64,000 nt of DNA. Source: Apoderus coryli (taxonomy: Eukaryota > Arthropoda > Insecta > Coleoptera > Attelabidae). The notes beneath the pieces were generated by a model. The model saw nothing but the letters and a program-made list of their open reading frames with translations, had not been told where the DNA came from and did not search any database. The stretch spans positions 25,916,001 through 25,980,000 of the forward strand of contig OU452201.1 in NCBI GenBank assembly GCA_911728435.2, read 5' to 3'. The position numbers and the translations under genes are program-made. Below, in pieces: positions 2,041 to 64,000 of the stretch. The number at the start of each line of letters is the position of its first letter. Position 1 is the stretch's first letter.

Positions 2041-2852
2041 GCTGGCACTAAATATCATGTCGGCTCAACCCCTGTTGGGTCTAAAACTTCTTAATTTATT
2101 TTTTTATAGAAAAGGCTAAATCAGTCATTTCGATATTCAACGCCACCTAGCGGACAGTTGGTATAAAATAATAAAGTTTGGTTTGCACTTTAAATGAAGT
2201 GTATCAATTGCGTTTTCTATGAGCTTAAGTAGACTTAAATCGGATAAAGAGTTGTTGAGATATTGCATATTTTCTAGAACATTATTATTTTACCCCACCC
2301 ACCTTTATTTTAGGAGATACGATAAACTATTAATGAATAAAGTTGTAAATTATTAAAAGTAAGATTCGAATATGTAACCTAGTGCCTACGTTTGTCCATT
2401 TGAAAAATCCTGCAATTTCATGAGATAGGTAGGTATCCGATGAAATACGAGTTCGGCAATACTTTCTTGTTGATAACGTCAATAATAATCAGATGAGCAA
2501 ATTACGGTCCTTGTGATTTCATTCTCGAACATATAGTGAAAATATAAATTTAAGTGATAAAATTAACTTACTGTATAATATAATTTTGTATAAACATATT
2601 AGGTTCCTTTTCAACAAGAATGAATATTCAGCAGTTGAGATTTCTGCCGAATAAAATTATTAAACACCCACCTATGAATTTGCCACACTAATAAATCAAT
2701 ACATTATTTTGAATTCATTTTTATTTAACAATTGTCACAATATTTTGGTTGTCACTTTAAGCACCGGTGACCGAAATGCAAATTAAATTTTAATGTTTTA
2801 TCTCTAGAACGGAAAATGAAAATTCGATTTTCTCTGTTCCAATGTAACTTTA

Positions 2853-2961
2853 ATGAAATTATTTTTGTTAATTATCGGTTATTTTAGTTTCAGTTTTGTT
2901 GGATATGCACTGATAATCATTGCCATCACAATGGTTGATGTCTATTCAACGCCTGAACAAG
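2853..2961 (+). CDS. NRF-6-like exon a (first visible; first membrane segment)
   Basis: Hydrophobic segment (FVGYALIIIAITMVDVYSTP) ending at donor GTAAGT with phase 1. The frame is open back to 2820 with no AG acceptor before the ATG at 2853. Better acceptors (TTTTAG to 2887, TTTCAG to 2893) lie inside, so the real exon may begin at 2888 or 2894 and be spliced to unseen upstream exons. The alternative is a start at 2853 without an NRF domain. Confidence 0.75.
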
Positions 2962-5900
2962 GTAAGTTAATAATAGGCGAATTGCGGTTGAAATGCGTAT
3001 TGACCAATTGTTTAAGTACAAGTAGTAGAAGAATAATATGTTTAAAATTATTGGATTTCGGTGTACAAGTTTTAAATAAAATTAGTAAATGGTGGGCTCA
3101 ATATAAATTGAACACACCTGTTGCAAATATTATAATCCGGTGGTGAGCCTTTTGTTGAAATTAAGTATCTCAGGATACAACAAGCTGATTTTGGGACAAA
3201 ATTTTGAAATATAACCTAAATGAGAACTTAAACATCTTCTTGTACTGAACTATGTCATATGCATTGCAGAGTGTAGGATCCCTTATTTAGCCTCCAGTGC
3301 AAAATCGCCAGTGATGCAAAATCTGTGCTTACACAGTTATCGCCAAAAATGAACTAGAGTCTGCTTGTTAGACAAATGATTTTAATATAAAATAGACCAC
3401 TAAGTCATTTACTGCCCGTTATTGTTACTGAATTGCAATTGTTGGCATGGAAATATTTCTATTGAATTTCAAACATTCGATTGGTTTCGTAACTTGTTTT
3501 ATTAATTTTCCATTTTACGTATATTTTGAGTGAATATGTTTGTCGGCTGTGTACCTTACAATACTAATTCCAAGCAAATGTCTATGTTTACTTTTACGAT
3601 TGAGGATTAACTGGTAACTTTCTATAAGTATTAAACAAAAAATTATATATTTCTGTTTTTCATATCGATGTCGTCCTAATTTTGCTATATTTTTAGTTGT
3701 AATCACGGTTGAATTGTATCGAAAATAAACAATTTAAAAGTCTGCTAAGCTTAATTTAAAATGATATAAAAAACCACAACTCGATATCCCTTTGTAATGT
3801 CAATACCGACCGCAGCCATCTATAGGAGCACCCTTCTTTATTTGCAGACCTTCACTGATGATATAAATATTTAAAAGAAGACGCTGGATTTGCACATGGA
3901 AATCTTGATGCTTAAACTCCCAACGTGTTCCGCTCGTGTCGTATACCGTGTCGTATACTGGCCGTGTCTGATACAGTGACTGCAAAAGGTTTCATCCACT
4001 TGTTTTATTAAAAATTATTATGTAATTTGATAGATTTTCTTTCATTTTATTAATCTAAGAAAGACTATTGAACAGATCATGGTTACAATATTCTACCACC
4101 GTATTTTACTGCATGTCGGACACACATTTTCTTGTTTAAATTCCACATTAAGTCTTCGCCATGCCATATGATGTCCATCCGATTATATTTAGATTAATCT
4201 GAGAAAATAACACGTTGCCAAAAATTATTTGTTTCATTCATATATTTATTTGCAAAGTCTAACCCTTTTTTTCGATTGATCATTAACCCAATACTTTTTC
4301 CAGTCACTGTAGTTATTTTTATTACTGTCGGTATCCTTTTATATCCCCATGGCAGGCATGATGATACGTCTTATATACGAGGGGGAAATGTATTAAAAAA
4401 CGCTGCATGCGATGCCCTTTTATAATGTAAAGAGGCATGGGAACGGTTAGCCCCGGTAGAATCTTAAATTTATATATTTTACATTGAGTTTGGATAGACT
4501 ATACATAACGTTGGCTAATTCTACCTGGTGTAATAAAAAATTCGAAGCGTCCTTAGTCTTTTTGTTTGTTTTTTCTATCGATGATATAAAGCAAACCAAA
4601 GTGAAAACATTGTTTTTCCAAGTGGCCGTATAAAATATTATTTCATGATTTACCAGTGTTAATCAACATTATTTGAATGAAAACTTAATGCACAAATTAT
4701 TCGCATGCTTAATTTATGAAATCTGATGAGTTGTTGCGAAATTCAAAATCTAATCAGAAAATGTCCAGTTAATTTTATATAACATTAAGTTCAAAAATAT
4801 CCATCAAATGACCCAATCGGGTCATTTATTTTTAAGGAAATAACGAATGAAAAGTATAAAGGTTTCGTCTGAGTGCATTGGAAGGGCATCTATCGTATTC
4901 AGTAAATGCCAAACCGCAGTTCGGCTGTAACCGATTACATATGGAATATATTAAAATGATGCAACATTATATAGTGTGAATATACCGAACAAGTCAACTT
5001 AAAATTTCTTGTCATGTTTCAGCAGTGGCAAATAAATGGATGACTATTTTCTCTGTACGACAGAATGCGGCACAGATATTTGCCAAGAGCAAAGGTATGT
5101 CGACTGTAAAAGGGAATTACAAATATTAAACTGTCTCTCGATGTTATCATGAAATACCATCTACCGATGTATTTCACTGAATATATCGTGTACGTAGCTT
5201 AACAGGAAGTTATGTATACTTGTAGTAACAAGTGATCGTGATTTTCCGCTCCTATTGGACCAGCAGTGAGGGCAAAACAAACTTACAAGATGTATATGCT
5301 TTAACCAACCTAACGAAGTGAAAAATATGTCAGTATAATATTTTAATTATATTTGAAAGATTTAAAAATACAATACATGTTTGAATTTTGCGACGCAGAA
5401 TCACATTTTGAAACATTAAATTCTCTATATTTGTGTTAGTAGGATAAATCTGCCGTCCAAAGCTAACTTAAATGTTTAATATAGCTAACATATTATAATA
5501 TCTTCAAATAATGATCGAAGTGTGTTATAATTGAACAAATTGAGGACTAACATCATTTCTTTATGTAAAAACCTTGATATTTGATCATTTTTACCTACTA
5601 TAAAACGCTAGCTAACTTATTCACTCTTATCTTCAACCAAAACGAGTTAAAGTTCATGCAGATCTCCTCCGAAGTCAAACAATTGTAAAATATGTCATGT
5701 GTTTTAACATACAGTTAACTATTCAGGTTAGGCGGTAGGTTATTTTTGGTGAGGCTCGTTTGAAGGGAAACATTTTTAAAATAGTTTCCAAATCGTCACT
5801 TTTTTCATTAAAATATTGTCATTAGAAAACAAAATAGAGAATAGAGTGTTTTTCTTGTGGAATCTACTCGCTTAAACAACATACTAACTAACAATGCTCT

Positions 5901-33410: not shown

Positions 33411-34218
33411 TCAGTTGAGGTCTCAAAATAATGAAGTTACGAATACACATATTCTATAGAAAATGTCACTGACTATGTGAGTAAAATTTGGTGTTTGTTT
33501 ATAATATCAGAAGTACATTATTATAAATGTACCTACTTATATGCATAACAAGTATTAACAATAGTATTAATTATTATAAAGGTATTTTCCTTGCTGTTCG
33601 AACACGGACTAGGTACGTGTGTAAGACCCTATATATTTTTCCTAATATTATAACCGAAATATTTTTTTTTTCTTCATCAACTTCGTGGGAACATACAAAG
33701 ATTCGATAGCGCGTTATGTTTATATTAAATAAAAATAATGCAGCCTCAAGAGGTTTGTAAAGTAAACAAATAAATGGTTCTAACGTCTGAGAATCACGTC
33801 TTTGTCTATGGGATTCATTTTCAATTTTATTTCCAAAGAGTTTACAACTATTCGAATATTTTAAATTATTAATTATTAAATTGTGTGTTTGTGAATCTTG
33901 TGTGTTCAACCTACCTATTGTCGACGAGGTTCTATTCTACATCCATAAGGGTGAGTTTCTCACTGAGTAAATTTGTTTTGCATGATTTTCTTTTCGATAC
34001 ATATATTATTCATTATTTATGATTTATTTAACATTTGGCTATTATTGATATTTTAATTTGATAATACAAATTTATCTGAAGGAAGTTAAATTCAAAACAA
34101 GTGCATTTTCTAGTCTTGATCATATTTACATTGATATCGAGTAATTATCAGATTTTTCATGTTTTATTATTTTATTATCATTGACTCATTAATGCCGTAA
34201 GAAACATCCGTACATTTT

Positions 34219-34654
34219 GGTCGATTATGGAGCAGTATCTTGCGTGACTCTGCCCCTGATACATTATAAGCTCCGGACCGTTGAATTATTATTTATTTTT
34301 GGTTAGTATCTGGAGCGATATCTTGCGTGACTCTGCCCCTGATATCATTGCACACTCAGTACTAACGTTTGGTCAATTATAGAGCAGTATCTTGCGTGAC
34401 TCTGCCCCTGATACATTATAAGCTCTCGACCGTTGTATTTTATTGGTTAGTGTCTGGAGCGATACCTTGCGTGACTCTGCCCCTGGTATCATTGCACACT
34501 CAGTACTAACGTATTCCTAGTATTTGGAGGGTACCTTGCGTGACTCTGCCCCTGGTACCATGGCCACTCCAGACTAGTGTTATTTGAATTTTGTGATAAC
34601 TGCAGCGATACCTTGCGTGACTCTGCCCCTGGTATCATTGACGCTCAGTATATC
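34219..34654. ncRNA. tandem array of six structured hairpins with invariant loop
   Basis: Six units at 34219-34279, 34302-34366, 34371-34431, 34446-34510, 34517-34577 and 34595-34654. Each carries the identical 18-base loop TTGCGTGACTCTGCCCCT. The inner stems differ but always pair: GTATC/GATAC (units 1, 3), GATATC/GATATC (2), GATACC/GGTATC (4, 6), GGTACC/GGTACC (5). A middle stem follows: GGAGC/GCTCC (1), AGAGC/GCTCT (3), CTG-AG/CTCAG with one bulged base (2, 4, 6), TGGAG/CTCCA (5). An outer stem follows that: GGTC/GACC (1, 3), GTTAGTA or GTTAGTG/TACTAAC (2, 4), CTAGT/ACTAG (5), GATA/TATC (6). A 3' internal loop always starts AT. Units 1-2 and 3-4 form a ~145-bp dimer. The array lies between two convergent genes. 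Strand of transcription, if any, is unknown, and I know no RNA family with this loop. Confidence 0.75.
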
Positions 34655-35289
34655 AATGAACGATGTAATACTGGCAATTTTTGATTGATTTTATCTTAAT
34701 TCTGAATTAAAGTCGTAATTGACGACATGAAATAACAATAAGGAATTAATTAATAATAATGCACATTATAATACAAGATTTTACATACACACATGAGTAG
34801 AACAAAATTGCTCAGACTTTCCTTCTGTTTATTTACAGATATACGTCACCTCATCAACCGATTAAAGCTTCGGCCCAGTTACTGGCAAAGTAATTTTACT
34901 TTTTATATATATTTCTTTATTTTAAGTTTTTATTTTACTTTCTTTATTTCTTCATTATATGTATATATATTTATATATTTTCTTTTTCTCTGAATTTACT
35001 GTTTTACTTAAAAAGAATACAAAATAATATACGAAAACAATTAACGCATCCTGACAATTTATTATACTTTAAATTTTCCTATAGTATACGTGTGCATCTT
35101 TTAAAATCTAAAAAAGTAGTGCACAAATTAAAAAAAAAACATATTATACGGTTATTAAATTATTACCTATTTTTAGCAAAAATAAATGGGTAGGTAGGTG
35201 TGTATTGTAAAATATTTGTTTCTTATAATATAATATATAATATCCAATAATATGGAAAAAGCAAGTGGAAGTAGTGCACAACAAGTTAA
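34655..35289. other. intergenic, AT-rich, nothing recognised
   Basis: The ORF at 34793-34993 is a phenylalanine/tyrosine-rich low-complexity frame with no sign of being a gene. Confidence 0.5.
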
Positions 35290-36833
35290 CCCATTAATCC
35301 CCAACGTTGCGTAAACGAAACATTTTTTAAATATTTTTTTTTTCAATGTGCCAGTAAAAAAAAAATACTTTTTTGTTGCTACAATTTTTTCAAAATAGAA
35401 CAAAGACTTTACGTTTTAAGAAATAAGTCGACAGAGTCAAGATATTTATTTTGTGCGAATTTGTGAACTCGCAACATTTTGAGATTTATCATTTCATATA
35501 TTCGTCAATCAATTCGTCTGACACAGAAACGGCTGAGATATTTCAAATTATGGATTTAGATTCCCATGACCTTTAGTAAAATGGGCGTTATATGATATTT
35601 TACAAAACATGTATAGTTTTTGCATATTGGATCATTTTTCCTAATGTTGCGTATACGCAACGTTGGGAATTCCGGTAAGAAGGCGCCATAATGTCGCGCC
35701 CTTCGCTGACCCACAATTAGGTAGCATTTATTTTGTTTCTTACATTATTTGTGTGTGATTCTTCTTAGTGAGTGTCAACAAAGATACTAAGTTATAATTA
35801 TTGTGATTTAAAATTATATTATATATAAAATATAAAGTGAAGCTCTGGAAAATATTGACTTGAAGTAAGTTATAATTATGGTTCTGTTTGTTAATTTTTT
35901 TTCTAAAATAATTTGTTTGGTTATAGTGATGTCTTGGAAAAACAGAATGCCTTTGTCATCTGCGGAGCTTTTAGCTACATTGGAGGAGGATGAGGATTTA
36001 CTGCAGACTGATACCATTGATGCAGTATACTATATTCCGCCACCCGTAGATGCACTTACAGACGAAGAGGAGCTTGACGAAGATATATGTGAGAACGTTG
36101 AAGATTTACCAGATGTTGCGGGGACCTACGAAATACACGCAAATTTGTCTGATACTTCTGAAGCCTTAGATAATGAATCTTTACCGTCAAAATCCAAAAA
36201 AAGCAAAACTATGTGCAAAAAATATAAAAATAAAGTCGAAGAAAACTCTACCGAAGTGGAGAAAAGAGACCCCAATATATACAACAGGACCATATAATGA
36301 AGATAATAATAACTTGGAACAAATTGAAAACAGAGTTTGCGGTAAAAGCCCTTTGGAAGTTTTTTCCTTGTACTTCAGTGACGAAGTTTGGGAAAAAATA
36401 ATATCTTATACAAGAAAATATGCTCACGACAATAATCGGCATTCATTTGATATTGATAAAACAAGCCTAAAGCGATTTTTCGGCATACCCATTTTTTCGG
36501 GATACCATACGTTACCAGCTACAAAACTCTATTGGTCAAAAGACAACAAAGCAAGAAGAAGATGCCGACAGTGTAAAAACAACACAATATACATGTGTGC
36601 TAAATGTAAGGTGCATCTTCACACAAACTGTTTTGAAATATTTCACACTAAGTAGTAGTAGTATCTGTTTACCGTAAATCCCAATGTTGCGTATACGCAA
36701 CATTTTTTTGTAAGAAAACTAAAAACTTGTATTTTTTTTAACTTGATAAACAGTTATTTGGACATAGGTTTAATAATAAAATAAACTAAAATCACCGAAA
36801 TTGTTTGATTTTCCAAGCTTGGGAATTAATGGG
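35290..36833 (+). mobile_element. piggyBac derivative with deleted catalytic core
   Basis: Flanked by TTAA on both sides (35286-35289 and 36834-36837). The ends are inverted: CCCATTAATCCCCAA left and TTGGGAATTAATGGG right. The plus-strand coding part starts at ATG 35929 with an acidic N-terminus (SSAELLATLEEDEDLLQ). It shifts frame near 36280 and continues through KSPLEVFSLYFSDEVWEKII and LPATKLYWSKD. It then joins directly to a cysteine-rich tail (CRQCKNNTIYMCAKCKVHLH) and stops at 36655. In piggyBac transposases the catalytic aspartates lie between those two parts, so the core (~300 residues) is absent. Three copies of an ACGTTGCGT/TGTTGCGTATACGCAACA palindrome lie at 35302-35322, 35643-35663 and 36683-36703. 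Confidence 0.85.
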
Positions 36834-38858: not shown

Positions 38859-39160
38859 TTACATATTTTCTTCAAACACTTTGTTTGTTAATCGCGTCAA
38901 ACTGTCACTAAAGTTTGCATCTTGAACTTGAACATTAATATCTGACAAAGACAAGTTGTTCATATCCGGAAACGTTTCACCATTTCTCATTGAATCCAAT
39001 TTGGAATCTAATTCAGCTGAATCGATATTATGTGTATCCAAATCCAGCAAATCGTTTACATATTGTGGGATATTACTCAGTTCATTGAATGTAGTTATCA
39101 TTCCAGTGGAGGTAGATGGAATATTCCAGGTTTGGACTGGTTGTAAAGGTGACATGCTTC
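38859..39160 (-). CDS. dl: dorsal terminal exon (acidic activation region)
   Basis: Acceptor TTTTCCAG. Encodes SMSPLQPVQTWNIPST, an acidic block (VNDLLDLDTHNIDSAELDSK), and ends TNKVFEENM before TAA at 38859-38861. Leucine/aspartate repeats fit a transactivation domain. Confidence 0.93.
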
Positions 39161-42100
39161 CTGGAAAATAATAAAATTTCCTACATATTATATTTCAAAT
39201 CTTATTACTGAAAGTGTACTACTATGAAGGCGTCTCGCTATTGATGAAACCGTCATTAGGTTCCTAACGGAATTTAATATCAATATAATATAATTTTGTT
39301 TCAATATCAAAGACATAAGTCTGAATTATTATCATTAATACGTTGTGAAAATGAATGATACTCTTTGTTTTTATATATTTATGGATTCCAATCAGCAGGA
39401 CAAGAATACAAATTATCGTTACTAAAAATCTTTAATCTTACTTGGACCGAAACGATTATAGGTAGGAGAAATACATCATTTATAATAATGATTACATTGA
39501 AAAAATATAACATAATCAAGCTATATTTCTACATAGGTAATTTATTTTTAATTATTTGATTTTATACAATTATTTTTTTGAATGTAATGTGATATTTACG
39601 TATTTGGTTAGTTTCTATCTATTATTATGTGTAAATTGTTTTGTTTTTAGAATTATAAGACCAGAGGAACGAAACAGTTTTGCGTTGCCGAAACGTAATT
39701 AAAAAAAAATGATTTGACATTAAATAACAGTAAGTAGTTATTTAATTTTATATTTTTAATTGTGGACCTCATCCCATGAACATTCTGATCGAAATATGTG
39801 TGATACATTCATATATATAATGTCACCTCTAAAATATGGATCTACTTTACGATTTTTAATAACAAAGTAGGTAGAATATTAACAAGTTCGCACCGAGTGG
39901 CTCATATATAATCCACAACGATATTTCCAGTAGAATAGCGTCTCACAGGTGAGCCATGAGCATACACCAATAATAAGCATTCTCGGTTGTGTTTGTGGTT
40001 ATGAGAGAAGTATAGTCTACTGTAATGGTTGGCTCATATATGTGTCGCGTAGTCCGCGGGTTTCTGACATAGTTAGTGTTCTACATGATTCTAAATGTAA
40101 AACGTGCATTTCTATGGAACGGATGTCTCCTTTATAACAAACAAAAGTACAACAAAAATCACCTATCCAAGTACAGTTTCGGGAGATGGTAATCCTGCAA
40201 TTGTGTAAAATTCATTCTGCACGAGTATTCTTAACTCCCTACCGGAAAAAAGAAAATCATTATTCAAAAAAAGTGGAAAAAAGGCTAAGGTGTAAGTAGA
40301 ATTTGTTCATCAGAAAAAAATCCGTACACAATCATTTTGTATTTGCGAGATATGCAAGGAGAAAAATGGCCAGATGATCGGTTTGTGTGTGGATCCGTGC
40401 TTTAAAATATATCAAGAAGGTATCTAAAATAACCCAAAATGTTTTCCTATTTTTTTTTTTTTTATATATAAAATTGCCAATAAATGTCTTAACAAATGGC
40501 GCATATTTGTGTCGTGCGGTCTAAAGGGTTGATTTTGTGCCCATAGACCAACGTCCCATATATGAGCCACAGCAGTAGACCTTTAAAGAAAAAGGCATAT
40601 CATGTAACGTGCACTGTTTTTTTTTTATATGTTGTCTGTGTGGACGAAACACAAATCACCCCTCGGTAACGAACGTGTTTTAAACACGCAAGCAAGCAGC
40701 AACAACACCAGAGCTTTCTTCCATGCCACGGCCTCTCTGCGCGAAGTCTCAACCCCTTGCAAGCCCGGGATGGCTCTTGTCTTCTAAGCAATGGCACGAC
40801 AATTGGTTACCGGTGGATGAAACATTTTCAGGAACTACTAAACAGGAACAGGATTGTCGACAATGCTGCACTCGATCGGTTGCCACATAGATCAACCCAA
40901 CAACACTTAGGAGAGGTACCTTCCCTGCAAGAAGTTGATAAGCCTATTCGACAGCTAGCGCTGATGGTATATCTCCTCAGTTTTTTAAAGAAGGCGGACC
41001 AGTGATATTGGAACATTCGCATGTTCTGATAACCAAAATATGGAACACCGAAACCGTGCCTGCTGAAATAATAATAAGATGCTTCAATTGCCACTATATT
41101 TAAAAAAAGGGGATAGATCCGTATATTGAAACTATCGTGGTATCTCTCTCCATTGCGGGAAGGGTTGTTTCAAGAATTTTGTCCAATCGTCTTCTCCCAC
41201 TCTCGGAAAAGTGCTTGCCGGATACACAATATGGTTTTAGACCCAACAGGGGTCAGCCGACATGATATTCAGTGCCAGGCAAATACAGAAAAAGTCACTG
41301 GAGCAAAATCGTCCTCTATAAATGGGTTTTATAGACCTTGTCAAGGCGTGCGATTTCGTTAACCGTGAGGCTTCTTGGGGGATACTATATGAAAGCACCA
41401 GTTCTCAACAGCAGCGCACCGGGAGAGCCATTTCCAATGTGTCATTGCACCGACCTTGTTTTCGATGTTCGTGGGAACGGTCATTCAACTGGTTAACCGT
41501 AGTGATACTTATTACTATGTCAAAATTTGACAGATGTACTATTGATACTGTACCACACCACCAAAATCTTCAACTGCTTTGGCCGCGTCAGTCACATCCC
41601 GAAAGGCATGAATTTTGAAAGTACAACATCGGCAATCCAATTAATTTGATACTCTCAGACTCTACTTTAGCAAATTAGTTTGAAACAGCAATACAAAATA
41701 GTTATACCCTCACTAGAAGTAATGAATGTAGAGTAAAATATTTTTACCGTCGACCGTCCATTAATGATGTAGGTGCCTATTTTAACGCACTCAAAATCGT
41801 TCATAAAAGACCCCTATTAATCAATCATTTTCTATTAATCAACGATTCTATTACATGCAACCCAAAGTACATTGCTGTTATACATTTATATTGGCATTGA
41901 ATATAAATAGAAAATAACTAGTGATTGTTTATTATCGTTAAATAAATAAAAATTGAAATTATATAAGTATATTTTTGAAAAGTACAGTCTACGGAAAAGT
42001 TTTGTAAGGAACTATGTGAATTAAAATAGCGATTAACAATCTCGAACATTAACGCGTAAGCGCCCTTATTAATACACTTGTTTGTTAAATATCTATTACC

Positions 42101-45100: not shown

Positions 45101-48100
45101 TAATAAGCTTTATTGTCTAATGGAGAATTCTAAAATAGAGAATTCAGGCCGCGAGTTTAACAGTGGTATGAAATTACACCATACACTTTAATATCAATCA
45201 AAAAAATTAAAGTTTCTAGTCAGAAATTTATTGATTATGACATTGCCTCGAAACTATTGTAACCTTGAATGTTGTTTTCTCACCTTTGCATGGGTTCTTA
45301 TGCACAATAAATGACTTCTCATTAAAACCAAAACTTCATAAATAAAAGTTGGATGTTGACAATCTTTCACCGAAAATATTTCCAACAAATATAATAGCCA
45401 GGAAAGAAGTTGGTTATTATTTTGTTTTTTGCTGTCTATTTTAAAATTTCATTTTACATCCTGTTCAGTACTAAAATTCATCAGGCATCAAAAATAACCA
45501 ATTAAACAACGACTATATATCTACCTTCCCAACACCTTGTTCCCAAATTACATGTAGGGTGTCTTACCCAACGCCAACTATCCCCTGATCTCGAAGACAA
45601 AAAGATTTACAGAAAATTTTTTTATATTAAAATTGATTCCTATTTAGAGTGTATGAACTAATAAAGTATACACGTGTCAATTTTGAATTAACAATATCCA
45701 CTTCTTTATTCCCTATTGACCATACCATTGTTTTTAGAAATTATAATTTCCCTAAGGATCCTTATTGTGATGGTGTAATTATATCTTTCCAGTTACTAGC
45801 CTTTTTCTAGAAAATTACAATCAACAAATATTTTTAGAAAAAACACTCCTTGATTGTTTTAATATTTAAAAATTAATTTCCCTTCGATTAAACATGGTTT
45901 TGATGATACTCGATGTAGAAAGGATATTTTAGATGTCGGCTATTGCTGAAACAAAAATCGATTGTATAGGGTACCTGAAAAAAGATATGCAATTTATACA
46001 AATATATATGGAAAAAAACTTCATTATTATAAATGACACACCGTGTATATTAATTGATTTTTGGACATCTGTTGATAATTCCTTTCATATGATATACGTA
46101 TAACTGGTGCCTTAAAACATATAAAAATATACAGGGTGGTCCAACGAAAAGTTTGCACCTAGCTTTTCTCTTTTTTTTGTAGTCGAATGCGAAAATGCTC
46201 GGACACGTCGATTTTGCTTTTGAGGGGGACACATTTTAAACATATTTTTCGATCTGCGCCTTTAACCCCCTAGCGGGGGTGAGTAACAACCCTAAAATTT
46301 TAAATGGAAAGAGGGGTCTAATGACATATCATTTGAAAGGACACAAAATTGTCTTTCTAATGATACCCTATTTGTCGAATTTTACTAAAACAGTTAATAC
46401 GAAAACGACTTTAAAGACATTAAGCCGATAATTTTGGTATTAATGAGAAATACAAATAAGTTTTAATTATTACGACTGAAAACAACTACAATCATTTCTA
46501 AATTATTTACTTTGAAGAAAAACGGGATTTCAAAAACACTATCTTATTTATCAGAACTAAATTCCTCACTAATCGTTTGCGTTTTTTGTTGAAATAAAAA
46601 CTGCAGATACGTGTAGGAAAAGAATTTACACCGTTTATTTTAGTCTTTTCATTGATTCAGTTTGGTTGCTTCTCAAGTTATTTTACTTTTACCGTACAAA
46701 ATGATTTATTCCATTCTAGAACGAGTTGAAATTGTTAAACTTTATTTTCAAAATAATAGTAGTGCTAGACTTACGGCTCGCTTATTTAATGAGAGACATC
46801 CCGATAAAAATGTGAATGATGTGTACGTTGGCAAGTTAGTTAAAAAGTTTGTAGATACCGGATCTGTCTGTAATGTAAAACACCAGCCGCAGAAACCGAT
46901 CAGAAATGAAGCTGTGGAAGTCGCTGTTTTAGGGCATGTTGAAATGGATCATAGTCAAAGTACCCGTCAACTAGCTGAAGCCTCAGGTGTCTCCCGTTCG
47001 TCCATAATACGAATTTTAAAAGCGTACAAATTTCATCCGTACAAAATCAAATTAGTACAGGAACTAAATGAGGATGATCCTGATAGAAGGCTGCAATTTT
47101 GTGAAGCAATGAGCCAGCGTTTAATTGAAGATCCGCAATTATTATTTAACATTTGTTTTTCCGACGAATGCACATTTTATTTGAATGGAGCTGTAAATAG
47201 GCACAATTGCCGTTACTGGGATGACAGTAACCCACATTTATTCCGTGAGGTTCATACCCAGTATCCTCAAAAAATAAACGTCTGGTGTGGCATATTAGGA
47301 AATCATATTATAGGACCACTTTTTATTCCTGGAAATTTAACTGGTGAAGTGTACCTAAACATGCTTGAAGACACAATTGATCCTTTAATAACACAAATAA
47401 TAGAAGATGACCAAAATCATACTGCTGATCGGCTTTATTTCCAGCAAGATGGAGCACCTCCGCACTATGTGGCTCCTGTAAGACAGTTCTTAGATGACCG
47501 GTTCCCTGGACGGTGGATTGGAAGGAGGGGCCCAATTGAATGGCCTGCCAGGTCACCGGATTTATCGCCTTTAGACTTTTTTCTTTGGGGGCACTTAAAA
47601 AATAAATGTTTTGCCACGAAGCCCGAGTCCATAGAAGATCTTCGCCAACGCATTACAGAAAAGTGCAGAAACATAACACCTGATATGCTACAAAATGTTA
47701 GAAATAGATTTGAACAAAATCTGTATTATTGTATGGAATCAAATGGGTCACATTTTCAACATTTGTTAATGTAACGTTTTAATAAATCAATTTAACAGCT
47801 TGTTTACTTTTTTTACAAAGCAATGTTAAAACTAACAAACATTGGAATGTACTAACGATTGCAGGTGTTTTCACTCGCAATAATTAAAACTTATTTGTAT
47901 TTCTCATTAATACCAAAATTATCGGCTTAATGTCTTTAAAGTCGTTTTCGTATTAACTGTTTTAGTAAAATTCGACAAATAGGGTATCATTAGAAAGACA
48001 ATTTTGTGTCCTTTCAAATGATATGTCATTAGACCCCTCTTTCCATTTAAAATTTTAGGGTTGTTACTCACCCCCGCTAGGGGGTTAAAGGCGCAGATCG

Positions 48101-51100
48101 AAAAATATGTTTAAAATGTGTCCCCCTCAAAAGCAAAATCGACGTGTCCGAGCATTTTCGCATTCGACTACAAAAAAAAGAGAAAAGCTAGGTGCAAACT
48201 TTTCGTTGGACCACCCTGTATAAAACAGAATAGTTTTAATAAAGATAAAAAATATTGAATACTGGTATTTAATGATTTGAGCATTTTTTTTTTATTGTTG
48301 ATTATCAATTAAAAATAAATTACGTGAATTAAAAATCCATATTGCTCTGGAAATATTCAACTCAGACTTATGCATATCACATGAAAGATATTAGTAGCAG
48401 GTATCAAAAATCAATATCAATCAATAAATATACAGGGTGTGCCGTTTGAAATAATGAATTTTTTACATTAATAATTTTATAAATTGCAATTATGTATAAT
48501 GGATTTTCATTTTAGTATATAACACATCTAGACTATACTTTCTACATCGAGCATAATTAAAACCATGTTTACTTTAGGAAATATTAATTTTTAAACACTA
48601 CAATAACCAACGAGCGTTTTTTGTTTGTTTTTTGTAATGTTATAGAAAGAGGTAAGAATTAAATACATATAACGAACCGTCACAATCGGGCTAACTAAAT
48701 AGTTTATGTACATTACGTACCTGTATGTCTGAGATCGGTATAGGAACTTAGGAAAATTACAAAGTATACAGACGAATCCAAATACGTTAAAATGTGAGTT
48801 GTATTTTAAAGATGAAAGATGCTTTGGCAGTAAATAACTACAGCTGTTAGTTCGATATAACTGACAACTTCATGTAGAAGAGGCTTAAGACCCAATTATG
48901 TATTGTGCCACATTTTGACATATAATTATTAACTATCATTAAACTAAAACAACAGTGAACGTAAACTAAATTATTAATTCTGAGGAAATAATTGCATCAT
49001 TTCGATGTGTAAGACAGGTATTTCTTTTTATGTATCATATTCAGAGATTCGAGTAAAATATAAATTGATTTTGATTTTATGTTGTGTCCAGCACAAATAT
49101 ATAAAAAGAAATACCTAGCTTATAACACATCGAAATGATACAATGCTTAAAATTAATAATTTAATTTACGTTACTGATGTTTAGTTTAATGTTAGTTAAT
49201 AATTATATGTAAAATTTTTTCCCACAAAATGATATTTATGTCACTGATGATTAGCCTATAAGTCTCGAAACATGTATGGCCTTTTGTAAGTTGTTCTGAT
49301 TTGACCATATATACGACTATATGGTTTTTGTAGCCGCGCCAATTCATTCCCAAAATTTTATATAAATCTTGTTTCCGTAAATCTTTATGTTTTCAAGATC
49401 AGGGGATAGTTCACGTTGCGTGAGACATCAAATTATACTAATAGATACTATACTAGTATGACAAAAAGCTACGTGCACATGAATAGTGTAAAAGTTTATT
49501 TATGATTTATAACCAATAATTATGAATTTTAGAAAATAGTGTAATTAATAGACATGTGAACGTAACTTGGAAAAAGTTTTGTTCCCTTTAACCAAAATAT
49601 TAAGGCATGTATTTCTAAATTATTAAATGAAACTTACGCTCATGTCCCTGTAATTGCCTTAAGATTTGGTTTGGGTCCTCAAGTTTCGGCCTCTTTCGTT
49701 TGCCCTTTTCACTAAACGAAACTATAAAAACACAAATATTAACAATGATACATTAGAAACTCAATAATTAACAATAAATATTTAAAATATGACAACTAGC
49801 AACATAAATATTTCAATAATCTAAACTACATTTATGGTAACCATCAATATTTTGTGAAGAGGTTTGAACCAAATAAACAGAATGAACAAGATTCTTACTA
49901 CAAATCAGTGATGTTCTAAGAACACAAAGCTGTTTATTTCAAAAGGACGAAGAAAATATAAAAATATAATTTATCTTTTTGACATTTTGCTTAACTCAAA
50001 GTTCAAAGTCTGACTCCCAAATATCTTCGACATTAAATTATAATTACATTTTAGGTACGTATATTAGCCACACCAGTTTCGAATAATTATTATTTTTTGT
50101 TGATTTGTAAACCTTGAATTCGTGAGTCAAAAACTTCCATTGAATATAAAGCAAATATTAAGTAATAATATATTTTTGGTGTCAGAAATTAACGGGAAAT
50201 GCGGAATTTAATTTTGGTTGTCAAAAAACAATAGCAAAATACAAATCTGTTGGTTCTTCTTCTTTGGTTCAAACGTATACAGTAATAAATAAAATATTCA
50301 GCGATTTATTGGTTCTTTATTATGTTTCCCGATATAACGAGGCGCTTGCACCTAATACATTCTTTCATAATATTGTTGTCAATTCCAGAACAGGCGTTAA
50401 AGAAATCTAACACAAACTTATAATCATTAGTGAAATGATACAATAAAAGTTAATTGGTCTAATAGAAATAATTGAATATTTTAAATACTTTACGCAAAAT
50501 CGAGAATAACAAAGTGTCAACTATGACTTTGATAATAATCTAGCGGTAACTTCGGCGTTTGTCAATAATTTTCCACCTTCAACAGGTGCATAATAACAAG
50601 AAACTTCATCAAATTCACTCTGAGTGGCAAACGGAGCCATTCTAGTATAAAGAGCATAGTTTTCGGCTTCCGTTAAATCTAAATTCATATCAATGTCATC
50701 ACTAACAACAACTGTAGTGACATTTGGTTGACTGACGGGTGGACTATCTTTTAAGGGGATTCTAATGCTGTTTGAAGAATGTGTTGATATGTTACCAGCA
50801 CTTGTATTATTGACATTAAGTAGATTTGTGCTTCCTGGATGTTGAAGAGATTTTGTACTTGCAAGAGAAGGTGTAACACTCGCTTCCCGTGAAGGGTTTG
50901 GAGTTTTGCTTTTACGACCGAATAACTTTGAAAAGAATCCACGTTTTTTAGGATTAGGCAGCGTGGAGTAGTTCGGTGCTGGGGGTAAGTCTTTATTTGG
51001 AGGTGACAGTTCTACCTGTGATTTTGGTCGTTGTAGATTAATTGAATGGGAACGATTGAAAGTTTCTGATTTTAAAGTCGAATTCGAACGCGTTAATATT

Positions 51101-54100
51101 GATTCAGGCTGGTTAATACTATTTATAGATCCGCCAATATACGTCTCGATTTTCTTTGAACGTTTTGGCGGTAGAGGCGGTAAACGTTCCATATCATTAT
51201 CTCGCTTATTTGGTGCAATCTCCATGAGAGGACTTGGAGGTACAAGTGGTCTAGATACTGTTATTGAAACTGGGTTTTTTAATGCCATTTGAAAACTTGT
51301 ATACGTTCTACTATCATCAAAAGATTCTTCGTTTGGTAACGAAGTCCCAGATTCTAGTTCACTTAAAAGTTTTGCATGAGTTGCTGAGTAGATTTCATCT
51401 AATTCGACCTCGACCTGATTAATTATTTCATTAAATGATTTTTCCTCAGCTGTTATGACTTTATTATTTTCGACAATGACATCATTATTTGATTGTATCC
51501 AATCAGAAGTGATATCGTTATTATTTGTTTCCATTGATTCCACATCCACACTCTTTTGGGTTTCCCTCATTTGTTTATTAAGAAGTTTCGCATCATTTTC
51601 TAATATACTATTTAACAACTCTGAATTAACTTTTTTCGCCAAATTTCTCCTAAATGACCAATAAGGTGGCCTACCTGAATCTAACGGTAATAACTGAAAG
51701 GGTAATGGTTCACTTGTGATTCCGTCAGAAGGCCTTCTTAATTGTATGAATACTTTTACTGGTTCAGTCACGTCTAATGTTTTGTACCGTGGCGTCCTAA
51801 AGTAGATGGCGTGTTGTTTATGGACTTGTGATGGCTGAAAGTCAGCATAACCTTCCCACACTGTTTTTCCATCTTTTTCTTCGTAGAAACGAATTTGGAT
51901 GTCTTCTTTTGCAACCTATATATGCACACACAAAAAATAATATAATTAGAAAAATAATATTATATTTTATTGGGTAACTATAAATTTAAATTGATCACAA
52001 ACGCTATTTAATATATATACAGGGTGTCCCACCGGCAACCAAATCGATTTCTATATAGACAAACTATCCACAGGAGAATTTTGAAAATATGACAGTGTAA
52101 CTATGTAGACGGTGGCAGATGAGATAAAATAGATATAATAATAATAATGCACACTCCAAAGCACTTCATTCTATTTATTTCTGGAGGGTGCAGACATAGG
52201 GAGAATTAACACCGCTGGAGACAGGCCACTTCAGCAAATGGTTTCTTTTACCGCGTGAAAATAATAATAATAATAATAATCTTTATTTTCTAACAGGTGT
52301 TGCTGCCCAATTACAAGACAATTATATATAACTAAACTAAGCACAGGTATTCATATTTAAATTCACAAAATAGGAATCAGTTAAAAAGAAAAATGAAAAA
52401 ATCAAACCAAAATGCATTCAAGGAAAACAATTCCATGGCGAACAATTAATTAATTAAACTATATCAATTTCGTTCGCTTGCAGACACAGACGCAAGTGAT
52501 GCTTAAATGAATTAAGTGCGCCATTGAAGTAATTAACATTATCGTGCAAATTCATACGATTCCAGTAGGTGGAAGCCCGAAAAAGGGGGGCTCTGCCTTC
52601 ATCATTTGTATGAATGTGAGGCACCCAAAACATATGTGAATTTATTGCCTGCAAGCGAGGAACACGAAACCATATCTGCCGCAGCAACTGAGGACATTCC
52701 AGCAAATTGTTTATTAATTTAAAAACAAAAATCTGAGATGCAAAAATTTGTCGTTCTGCTAGCAGTCTAAGATTAAATCTATCTAATAAAATACAATGAT
52801 CGTAGCCACGAGGTGGAAAATATCCATCAATTTTAAATGACATATACTTTAGAAATTTGCGTTGGATACTCTCGAGTCTTTGTATTTGAACATGATATAT
52901 AGGTGACCAAACAATTGAAGCGTACTACAACTTGGACCTCACAAAAGAGAAGTAGAGTGTTTTAAGACATTCAATGCTATTAAAATTCCGCGTTTGTCGT
53001 ACAATAAACCCCAACATCCTCATAGCGGCCGTCGACACCTGTGAGACATGGTCATTGAAGGATAACTCGCTGGCAACATAAATGCCGAGATCCCCAATCA
53101 CATTGCATCTCTCCAATGTTATCCCATTAAGAACATAGACGTTCAGCACTGGTTTAACACGTTTTGTAAATGTTATTAATTTACATTTAGCGGCATTCAA
53201 AGGAAGTCGGTTTAGAGCACACCATTCAGATAGAATATTCAAATCACGCTGAAGTCGATTACAATCGTCATCGCAATGTACGACCCTGTACAATTTCAAA
53301 TAGTCTGCAAAAAACAAGTGATCGCCTGAAATTCTGTTCCCAATGCTGTTCACAAAAATTTCAAACAGCAATGGTGCCAAAGTACTGCTCTGCGGTGCCC
53401 CACTCGATACATCGAAACAGTCGGACCTATAACCATTATACTCAACAAATTGTCGACGGGTTGTTAAATACGAGTCAAAGAAAGCAATCAAGTTTCCGCT
53501 GAAGCCGATGTCATACATTCGCTGTCGAAGCAGAGAGTGATCAAGCTTCTCAAATGCCTTTGAGTGTTATAAGTTATTCAAACCTCCGGTTATACTGGAA
53601 GCAGGTGTCAACTTGCTTACTGCTTACTATACAAACTGCTTAACATCAACTGAAAAGCGTAGAATTCAGAGAGTACAAAATTCTTGTCTTGGACTGATAC
53701 ATGGCATTCGTAAATAGGAACGAGTTTCACATAAAGTATAAAGCACTGGGTCGTTGAGGATGGAGAATGGTCAAAAGCTGCACAGTGCTTGCTTTTATCA
53801 TAGGATCATTAATACTATGAAACCCTCATAATATTTTTATAACAAAATACACTTCCGATGTGCTGCTCATAGGATTAAGGTAAAATTCAAAGACAGAATT
53901 TCGATTCCAAAACACTGTTTCAAAGGAGCTTTTCATAGTGTCTTTCAAAGCTCTATAAATTCAGTTCCTAGACAATTTAGGACTCTATCTTGCCCTGCCT
54001 TTAAACAAAAGTGTAAAAAGTTAAATACGCAAAATTAATTTATTATATTTTCACTCTCCGGAGATCTGTAACCTAGACAATGTTGCTTCAGTATTTTTCT

Positions 54101-62692: not shown

Positions 62693-64000
62693 GATATAAT
62701 TATCAGAGCCGTATTATTAATTTTTAAGCCCCCAACAACATTATAGCTGCTGACCTTATAGCTCAAAACTCGCAAGGCGTGCCACTTTGAAATTTATAGC
62801 ATAGATAGTCCTCTACATGTCCTTTGAACTCATATATGTTAGAATGACTTACACCCCGTCAGAGCCGTACTATATGATTTTTTTATTCCGGGATAATATT
62901 TTAACTGCTGACCCCATATCTCAAAACTAGCAAGGCATGCCACCTTGGAATTTAAAGCATAGAGAGTCCTCAACATACCCTTTGAACTCATAAATGTCAG
63001 AATGACTTACACCCCGTCAGAGCCGGACTATCTGATTTTTTTATTCCGCGACAGGTTTTAACTGCTGAACTCATAGCTCAAAACTGGCAAGGTGTGCCAC
63101 TTTGAAATTTATAGCATAGATAGTCCTCAAAATGTCCTTTGAACTTATATATGTGAGAATGACTTACACCCCGTCAGAGCCGTACTATATGATTTTTTTA
63201 TTCCGGGATAATATTTTAACTGCTGACCCCATATCTCAAAACTAGCAAGGCATGCCACCTTGGAATTTAAAGCATAGAGAGTCCTCAACATACCCTTTGA
63301 ACTCATAAATGTCAGAATGACTTACACCCCGTCAGAGCCGGACTATCTGATTTTTTTATTCCGCGACAGGTTTTAACTGCTGAACTCATAGCTCAAAACT
63401 GGCAAGGTGTGCCACTTTGAAATTTATAGCATAGATAGTCCTCAAAATGTCCTTTGAACTCATATATGTGAGAATGACTTACACCCCGTCAGAGCCGTAC
63501 TATATGATTTTTATATGATGATATGGGGTCAGCAGTTAAAATATTATCCCGGAATAAAAAAATCATATAGTACGGCTCTGACGGGGTGTAAGTCATTCTC
63601 ACATATATGAGTTCAAAGGACATTTTGAGGACTATCTATGCTATAAATTTCAAAGTGGCACACCTTGCCAGTTTTGAGCTATGAGTTCAGCAGTTAAAAC
63701 CTGTCGCGGAATAAAAAGTCAGATAGTCCGGCTCTGACGGGGTGTAAGTCATTCTGACATATATGGGTTCAAAGGACATTTTGAGGACTATCTATGCTAT
63801 AAATTTCAAAGTGGCACACCTTGCCAGTTTTGAGCTATGAGTTCAGCAGTTAAAACCTGTCGCGGAATAAAAAATCAGATAGTCCGGCTCTGACGGGGTG
63901 TAAGTCATTCTGACATTTATGAGTTCAAAGGGTATGTTGAGGACTCTCTATGCTATAAATTCCAAGGTGGCACGCCTTGCCAGTTTTGAGATATAGGGTC
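62693..64000. repeat. satellite array with dimeric period and orientation switch
   Basis: Monomers of 157-158 bp are recognised by GACTTACACCCCGTCAGAGC. They start at about 62843, 63001, 63158, 63316 and 63473. Two monomer types alternate: type A has CCGTACTATATG, CCGGGATAATATT and AGCAAGGCATGCC; type B has CCGGACTATCTG, CCGCGACAGG and GGCAAGGTGTGCC. The higher-order unit is therefore ~315 bp. Near 63515-63530 the array inverts, and the same monomers continue as reverse complement to the window end. The first unit (62693-62840) is more divergent. Confidence 0.93.

Follow-up and report, generated by a model that had tools for sequence, protein, structure and literature searches.

Tandem repeats in long terminal repeats (LTRs) have been described before, as have tandem stem-loops and hairpins that serve in packaging. 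The Ty3/Gypsy element Woot of Tribolium has long LTRs with tandem repeats, which form an array of near-identical 122-bp units; Woot resembles the element described here in being a beetle Ty3/Gypsy element with tandem repeats in long LTRs. We know of no invariant-loop hairpins with covarying stems in Woot. The gypsy Su(Hw) insulator shares with the beetle array the tandem constant sites, separated by AT-rich linkers, and the location within a Gypsy element; unlike the array, it is a DNA site of a zinc-finger protein, situated in the 5' UTR and devoid of hairpins. The dispersed packaging signals of single-stranded RNA viruses comprise numerous stem-loops whose stems are free but whose loops have a motif in common, and it is the coat protein that reads them. 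They are degenerate and spread along the genome, whereas the beetle arrays, as putative binding sites, are exact and tandem and lie in the LTR or the pol tail of a retrotransposon. In Drosophila roX a short motif recurs in several stem-loops of one RNA, and more stem-loops result in more activity; roX differs from the beetle array by its 8-nt roXbox motif, its role as a host lncRNA in dosage compensation and the absence of an LTR (PMC4719309). The Xist A-repeat has a repeated unit sequence and belongs to a host RNA (PMC5742192), whereas in the beetle array the stems are variable and only the loop is fixed. The homologous regions of baculoviruses contain repeats with imperfect palindromes that act as enhancers, and IE1 action needs the 30-bp palindrome itself (PMC2834656); in the beetle array, by contrast, it is the centre that is fixed and the arms that differ. 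Invariant-loop arrays with free stems that recur with family-specific loops were found neither in a limited literature search (hairpin arrays, insects and beetles) nor in Rfam. How an LTR retrotransposon tells its own RNA from that of sister elements when it selects RNA for packaging is, to our knowledge, poorly understood in animals.

The array lies in the window, i.e. the whole stretch of 64,000 nucleotides analysed here, and consists of six tandem hairpin units (Table 1), all of which carry exactly TTGCGTGACTCTGCCCCT in the loop (6/6). A search of the window with up to three mismatches found no match beyond these six, with 0.02 expected by chance, in agreement with a preliminary description of the locus that had claimed one exact 18-nt loop for all units. 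As read by eye from the alignments, each unit is composed of an outer stem, a middle stem, a 3'-side bulge of 6–8 nt, an inner stem of 5–6 bp and the 18-nt loop. The loops follow each other at 69–83 bp, and the GC content is 0.45 in the array versus 0.26–0.27 in its flanks. Units 1 and 2 and units 3 and 4 look like a 144-bp dimer that was duplicated recently, which leaves four unit types. The fully invariant run comprises the loop and its closing pair. Since the 5' arms of non-duplicate units differ at 7–15 of 21 positions, a constant loop beside such divergent arms is unlikely at equal rates of change, and the earlier proposal that the loop is the constant part of the unit is borne out.

Table 1. 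Coordinates of the array units, of the LTR that carries them and of the neighbouring Dorsal exons (positions in the window)
Feature	Position	Strand	Loop	Remarks
Hairpin unit 1	34219..34282	+	34240-34257	type A
Hairpin unit 2	34302..34366	+	34323-34340	type B
Hairpin unit 3	34371..34434	+	34392-34409	type A; compensatory change in the middle stem relative to unit 1, of which it is a recent duplicate
Hairpin unit 4	34446..34510	+	34467-34484	type B; compensatory change in the inner stem and one G.U relative to unit 2, of which it is a recent duplicate
Hairpin unit 5	34516..34578	+	34536-34553	type C; inner stem GGTACC/GGTACC
Hairpin unit 6	34592..34655	+	34613-34630	type D
5' target-site duplication	33616..33619			CGTG
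Solo LTR	33620..35083	+		1464 bp, TGTAAGACCC...TTTTCCTATA; sense set by pol of L037
Extra bases	35084..35088	+		GTATA, the five bases with which the internal region of L037 starts behind its 5' LTR
3' target-site duplication	35089..35092			CGTG, after LTR and five extra bases
Possible alternative last Dorsal exon	38862-39194	-		weak match, E 5.8e-4 among 120 proteins, Callosobruchus Rel-domain protein
Dorsal C-terminal exon	50524-51915	-

With a covariance model of the units, the next match in the rest of the window after the six had only E = 0.68. Rfam gave no match in the whole window at the gathering threshold and a single one under relaxed conditions, at the edge of the array (15.7 bits, threshold 55), which is in line with the earlier remark that no RNA family with this loop is known. 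Neither the loop nor the tandem loop was found in viral contigs, and the loop had no match in genome contigs in a search separate from that of the 428-Mb beetle genome described below; the tandem 13-mer occurred in three stretches of genome contigs (two bacterial MAG contigs). Two translations of the array, checked as possible spurious proteins, had no matches, and a scan for bacterial-type promoters and terminators, a type ill-suited to insect DNA, stayed near shuffle level.

In the six units 84.0% of the cells are paired, compared to 74.7% after shuffling (none of 500 shuffles as high) and 27–47% with slid partners. The covariation score was 0.292 versus 0.148 in shuffles (1/500), and five pairs had changed on both sides versus 2.5 (16/500); the number of further pair types, 7, showed no excess over shuffles (8.6). 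When the 5' and 3' arms were reassigned among the units, the own arms ranked first of 720 assignments by duplex energy on both strands, and second (+ strand) and ninth (- strand) of 720 by the full hairpin fold. By eye, the inner, middle and outer stems are as the preliminary description had them, variable and yet paired. Swapping of arms weakened folding of the + strand in 9 of the 10 unit pairs printed, and a swap between the recent duplicates, units 1 and 3, did not (own -28.7, swapped -29.1). The seven within-unit substitutions that separate the duplicates (units 1/3 and 2/4) resolve into two compensatory pairs, one change from A-U to G.U (+ strand) and two changes outside pairs. The compensatory changes are G-C to A-U in the middle stem (units 1/3) and U-A to C-G in the inner stem (units 2/4). 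Under random placement, at least two double compensations between the duplicates have a probability of 0.000325; the absence of broken pairs has a P of only 0.07. The proposal that pairing is conserved beyond recent duplication is supported.

Folding strength was less distinctive. Compared to shuffles, single units gave z scores of -0.4 to -2.1 on the + strand, which is only modest, and -0.7 to -2.4 on the - strand, and the array as a whole folded no better than shuffles on the + strand (z -0.31) but better than shuffles on the - strand (z -2.73). In sliding fold scores along the window LTR, the array windows never fell below z -2. Single hairpins with equally strong arms are not rare (0.2–5% of 6393 sampled window positions); the 40 best positions in the LTR for a hairpin around an 18-nt spacer are all inside the array. 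In the inner stem across all copies, 13 G.U versus 10 A.C pairs reveal no clear strand bias.

The array almost certainly sits in the LTR of a Ty3/Gypsy-type retrotransposon. With up to two mismatches the loop occurs at 137 places in the 428-Mb beetle genome (reversed control, 0); the 100 places listed are all exact, and the 26 fetched loci that cover them hold 104 exact loops. Similarity to the window starts at 33620 in most near-complete copies and stops near 35083, and the LTR ends are TGTAAGACCC and TTTTCCTACA, i.e. TG...CA. Among the 17 single LTRs with both ends located, 14 terminate in CCTACA and the window copy, L022 and L027 in CCTATA, the end having been sought as CCTA[CT]A and other ends left uncounted. 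An exact 4-bp target duplication flanks 14 of the same 17; in the window copy and L022 it is found only beyond five extra bases, GTATA, and at L026 none was seen. In the window LTR and L022, this GTATA of the internal region stands between a TA (not CA) end and the duplication, which looks as though integration of a shifted 3' end had happened on two occasions. One copy, L037, has two LTRs that differ at 1 of 1462 bases, an internal region of ~2.9 kb and an outer duplication, AAAA. Pfam identified RVT_1, RT_RNaseH, Integrase_H2C2 and rve in consecutive pieces of this internal region; no gag was found among frames of at least 60 aa, and the open reading frame starts inside the RT. The order RT, RNase H, integrase is also that of BEL/Pao, and it is these Pfam families of the pol domains, together with the 4-bp duplications, that point to an element of the Ty3/Gypsy type. 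The array occupies LTR positions of about 600–1036 in the sense direction of the element, and the dispersed copies show that it is copied along with its retrotransposon. The preliminary description had left open a structured transposon end, and the array was indeed found inside a solo LTR with TG...CA ends and target duplications.

Pairing persists among the genome copies. In 136 units from 26 loci, 69 of them distinct, 81.4% of the cells are paired versus 72.4% after shuffling (none of 500 shuffles as high) and 27–42% with slid partners. Cells with double changes numbered 127 versus 56 in shuffles (0/500); there was no clear excess of pairs with double changes (9 versus 8.4) or of pair types (28 versus 26.0), and all these counts come from copies that are not independent. 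In the older copies L033 and L034 the inner stem of type A units has all 6 bp (GGTATC/GATACC), and young copies retain 5 of them, a loss that runs against strict pairing. The divergence of 18 copies from the window amounted to 1.3% in loops, 2.0% in arms, 0.8% in linkers and 3.2% in the rest of the LTR. After insertion every part decays and loops enjoy no special protection; because the loci were picked by their loops, they do not allow loop conservation in old copies to be judged. Homologues with preserved pairing thus exist outside the window: the genome copies keep it, and two related elements have invariant-loop arrays of their own.

These relatives came from an integrase query, which gave 150 scored matches among 2219 candidates, 30 of which were turned into loci. 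The covariance model of the window units had no match in 23 pol-relative loci. A model-free scan, in which a cluster was called when 500 nt contained three or more hairpins that agreed in loop and closing pair, had stems of at least 6 and comprised three or more different stems, was run on 35 relative loci (L038-L072, several being copies of one family) and detected clusters in only three of them, L068, L064 and L067. L068 is a sister element with 79% integrase identity, in which three hairpins with the invariant loop CGGT lie in the LTR (one copy), at positions 652–803 from the LTR start and on the sense strand only. The stems around CGGT are GTACATTG/CAGTGTAT, ACATTG/CAATGT and TGGGCACTG/CAGTGTCTA, with 4 G.U among 23 pairs, and all three CGGT of a 1500-nt stretch are inside such hairpins. 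Hairpin 1 folds with -13.7 in sense versus -1.7 in antisense and hairpin 3 with -10.7 versus -5.3; hairpin 2 is at least as significant on the antisense strand (z -2.67 sense, -3.34 antisense). L064 (50% integrase identity) has a cluster with AACG loops that pairs on both strands. L073, which covers the L064 array, contains eight AACG hairpins with stems of at least 5 (one copy), and 6 of 16 AACG have stems of at least 6. Its hairpins are in the tail of the pol ORF, within a 528-codon open frame, cut at the fetched start, which ends shortly before the 3' LTR. The eight loops fall into codon phases 0 (four), 1 (one) and 2 (three) and are read, for example, as QNV and ETS; with all three phases used, the constraint is therefore on nucleic acid and not on protein. 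The LTR starts of L068 and L073 were inferred from a shared preceding sequence, GGCCGA(A)C followed by TGT. The third cluster, in the degenerate L067 (43% integrase identity), has AAAGT loops; it is antisense and precedes the integrase match, and its link to the element is tentative. This AAAGT array spans + about 446–850 (antisense 2715–3116), where 9 of 16 AAAGT in 701 nt have stems of at least 6 bp.

No cluster was detected in L069-L072, and absence from most other relative loci means little because those loci reach only part of the LTR. As to the background of the scan, L039-L072 without L068 had 4 clusters in 232,422 strand-bases, all in L064 and L067. The window beyond its LTR (125,072 strand-bases), the flanks of 24 solo-LTR loci (135,800 strand-bases) and block shuffles of L064 and L068 (100 of each) contained none. 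L071 (reverse complement, 100–300) and L072 (80–300), both 45–46% relatives, have 10–11 tandem copies of the 20-bp unit AATCAGAAGCCCTCTAAGGC near the end of pol, which may form weak antisense hairpins.

Transcription brings each base of an LTR into the genomic RNA one or more times, so that this RNA can carry six hairpins with variable stems that display one loop. We propose that selection keeps and repeats a hairpin with this loop in the element, which would imply that something binds the loop multivalently on the sense RNA. The binder would be a protein or an RNA, and the loop differs between families. Recognition of the loop at the RNA level appears quite probable, and the fuller reading, a multivalent recognition array on the sense RNA of the element, perhaps for packaging by Gag, has in our estimate a probability of about 0.6. 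The foremost candidate for the binder would be the element's own Gag/nucleocapsid, with the array as RNA packaging and assembly signal, and the second a host protein that acts in export or stability. Packaging by the element's own machinery is favoured because the loops of related families differ while the layout recurs, whereas a shared host factor would favour one loop; the identification with Gag is nevertheless a guess, and a doubtful one. The position and orientation of the array relative to pol would fit a candidate packaging signal on sense genomic RNA. More tentatively, a beetle Ty3/Gypsy lineage may use stem-loop arrays, each family with its own invariant loop and drifting stems, as a putative multivalent identity tag that co-evolves with its cognate binder (Gag or other), is placed in the LTR or the pol ORF and separates self RNA from that of sister families. 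If so, repeated hairpins with a family-specific exact loop would represent a compact, directly testable recognition code, and the arrays would provide ready-made RNA tags in which loop and stem can be separated.

The loop could instead act as double-stranded DNA, in a U3 enhancer where TTGCGTG, an AhR/ARNT xenobiotic element, is fused to TGACTCTGC, an Nrf2/CncC-Maf core (TGACnnnGC), and six repeats drive LTR transcription under xenobiotic or oxidative stress with incidental stems. Tandem U3 enhancers are common, and the 3' arms of units 2, 4 and 6 contain TCAGT, which we take to be an insect initiator-like motif. Both motifs are exact in each loop and agree with the XRE core TTGCGTG (PMC11358079) and the ARE core TGACXXXGC (PMC6208165). 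The match is striking but post hoc, and it leaves the pairing of the own arms and the double compensations unexplained. The invariant run moreover covers the closing pair and four loop bases outside the motifs, the six sites are without helical phasing, and the relatives' loops, CGGT and AACG, have neither motif. The bases after TGAC..GC also misfit two functional moth CncC/Maf sites, which read GCA (PMC7978377). We consider this explanation improbable.

A mutational origin of the hairpins is given an equally small share. Template switching during replication, at a short motif, would copy a flank as its reverse complement and heal mismatches without selection, the loop being constant by common origin and unit exchange. 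Such switching is reported to give rise to hairpins as well as to compensatory changes (PMC8794818). L012, L025, L027, L029 and L035 show exchange at the loop: they contain units whose 5' and 3' arms come from different units and meet at the invariant loop, a footprint of recombination, and the five AACG stems listed are perfectly Watson-Crick. The process predicts no strand bias, yet the CGGT cluster is in sense only and tolerates G.U; nor does it predict a constant loop beside such divergent 5' arms, a different constant loop in each family or the absence of clusters from window and flank controls. Should template switching nonetheless keep the stems, the arrays would show cleanly, in a natural setting, that compensatory change can come about with no selection on structure, an outcome that would matter for all covariation-based RNA discovery.

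Just as unlikely, in our view, is that the array acts like a constitutive transport element, in nuclear export or RNA stability, with a host export factor in place of Gag as its binder. The arrays lie either inside the LTR or immediately ahead of the 3' LTR, so that they can stand at the 3' end of genomic RNA, and the export elements known from retroviruses consist of structured RNA that exposes its loops; a shared host factor, however, predicts one loop in related families, and their loops differ. Finally, a host noncoding RNA of the Dorsal locus is extremely improbable: the array is downstream of Dorsal, but the 137 dispersed places and the LTR boundaries with target-site duplications rule out a host ncRNA or the Dorsal 3' UTR as its origin and replace the earlier notion of a single-locus RNA between two genes by a part of a dispersed solo LTR, so that a host RNA could at most have come about by later co-option. 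Multivalent recognition of the loop on the sense RNA of the element is the reading we prefer.

Concerning the surroundings of the array, the preliminary description had placed it in the gap between two convergent genes. Dorsal was confirmed on the - strand, where the first twelve organism-named protein matches are all from beetles with 50–59% identity, but no Pfam match was obtained for the four + strand segments tried. A decayed piggyBac-like element adjoins the LTR at ~35285–36700 (limits by eye), with a DDE_Tnp_1_7 match within 36170–36652. At 46662–47774 (+) there is an open 370-aa transposase-like frame, for which DUF4817 was above and DDE_3 below the cut-off. Near the end of the window, at 62740–63994, two tandem arrays with units of 156–158 bp face each other, and by eye their units are apparently complementary.
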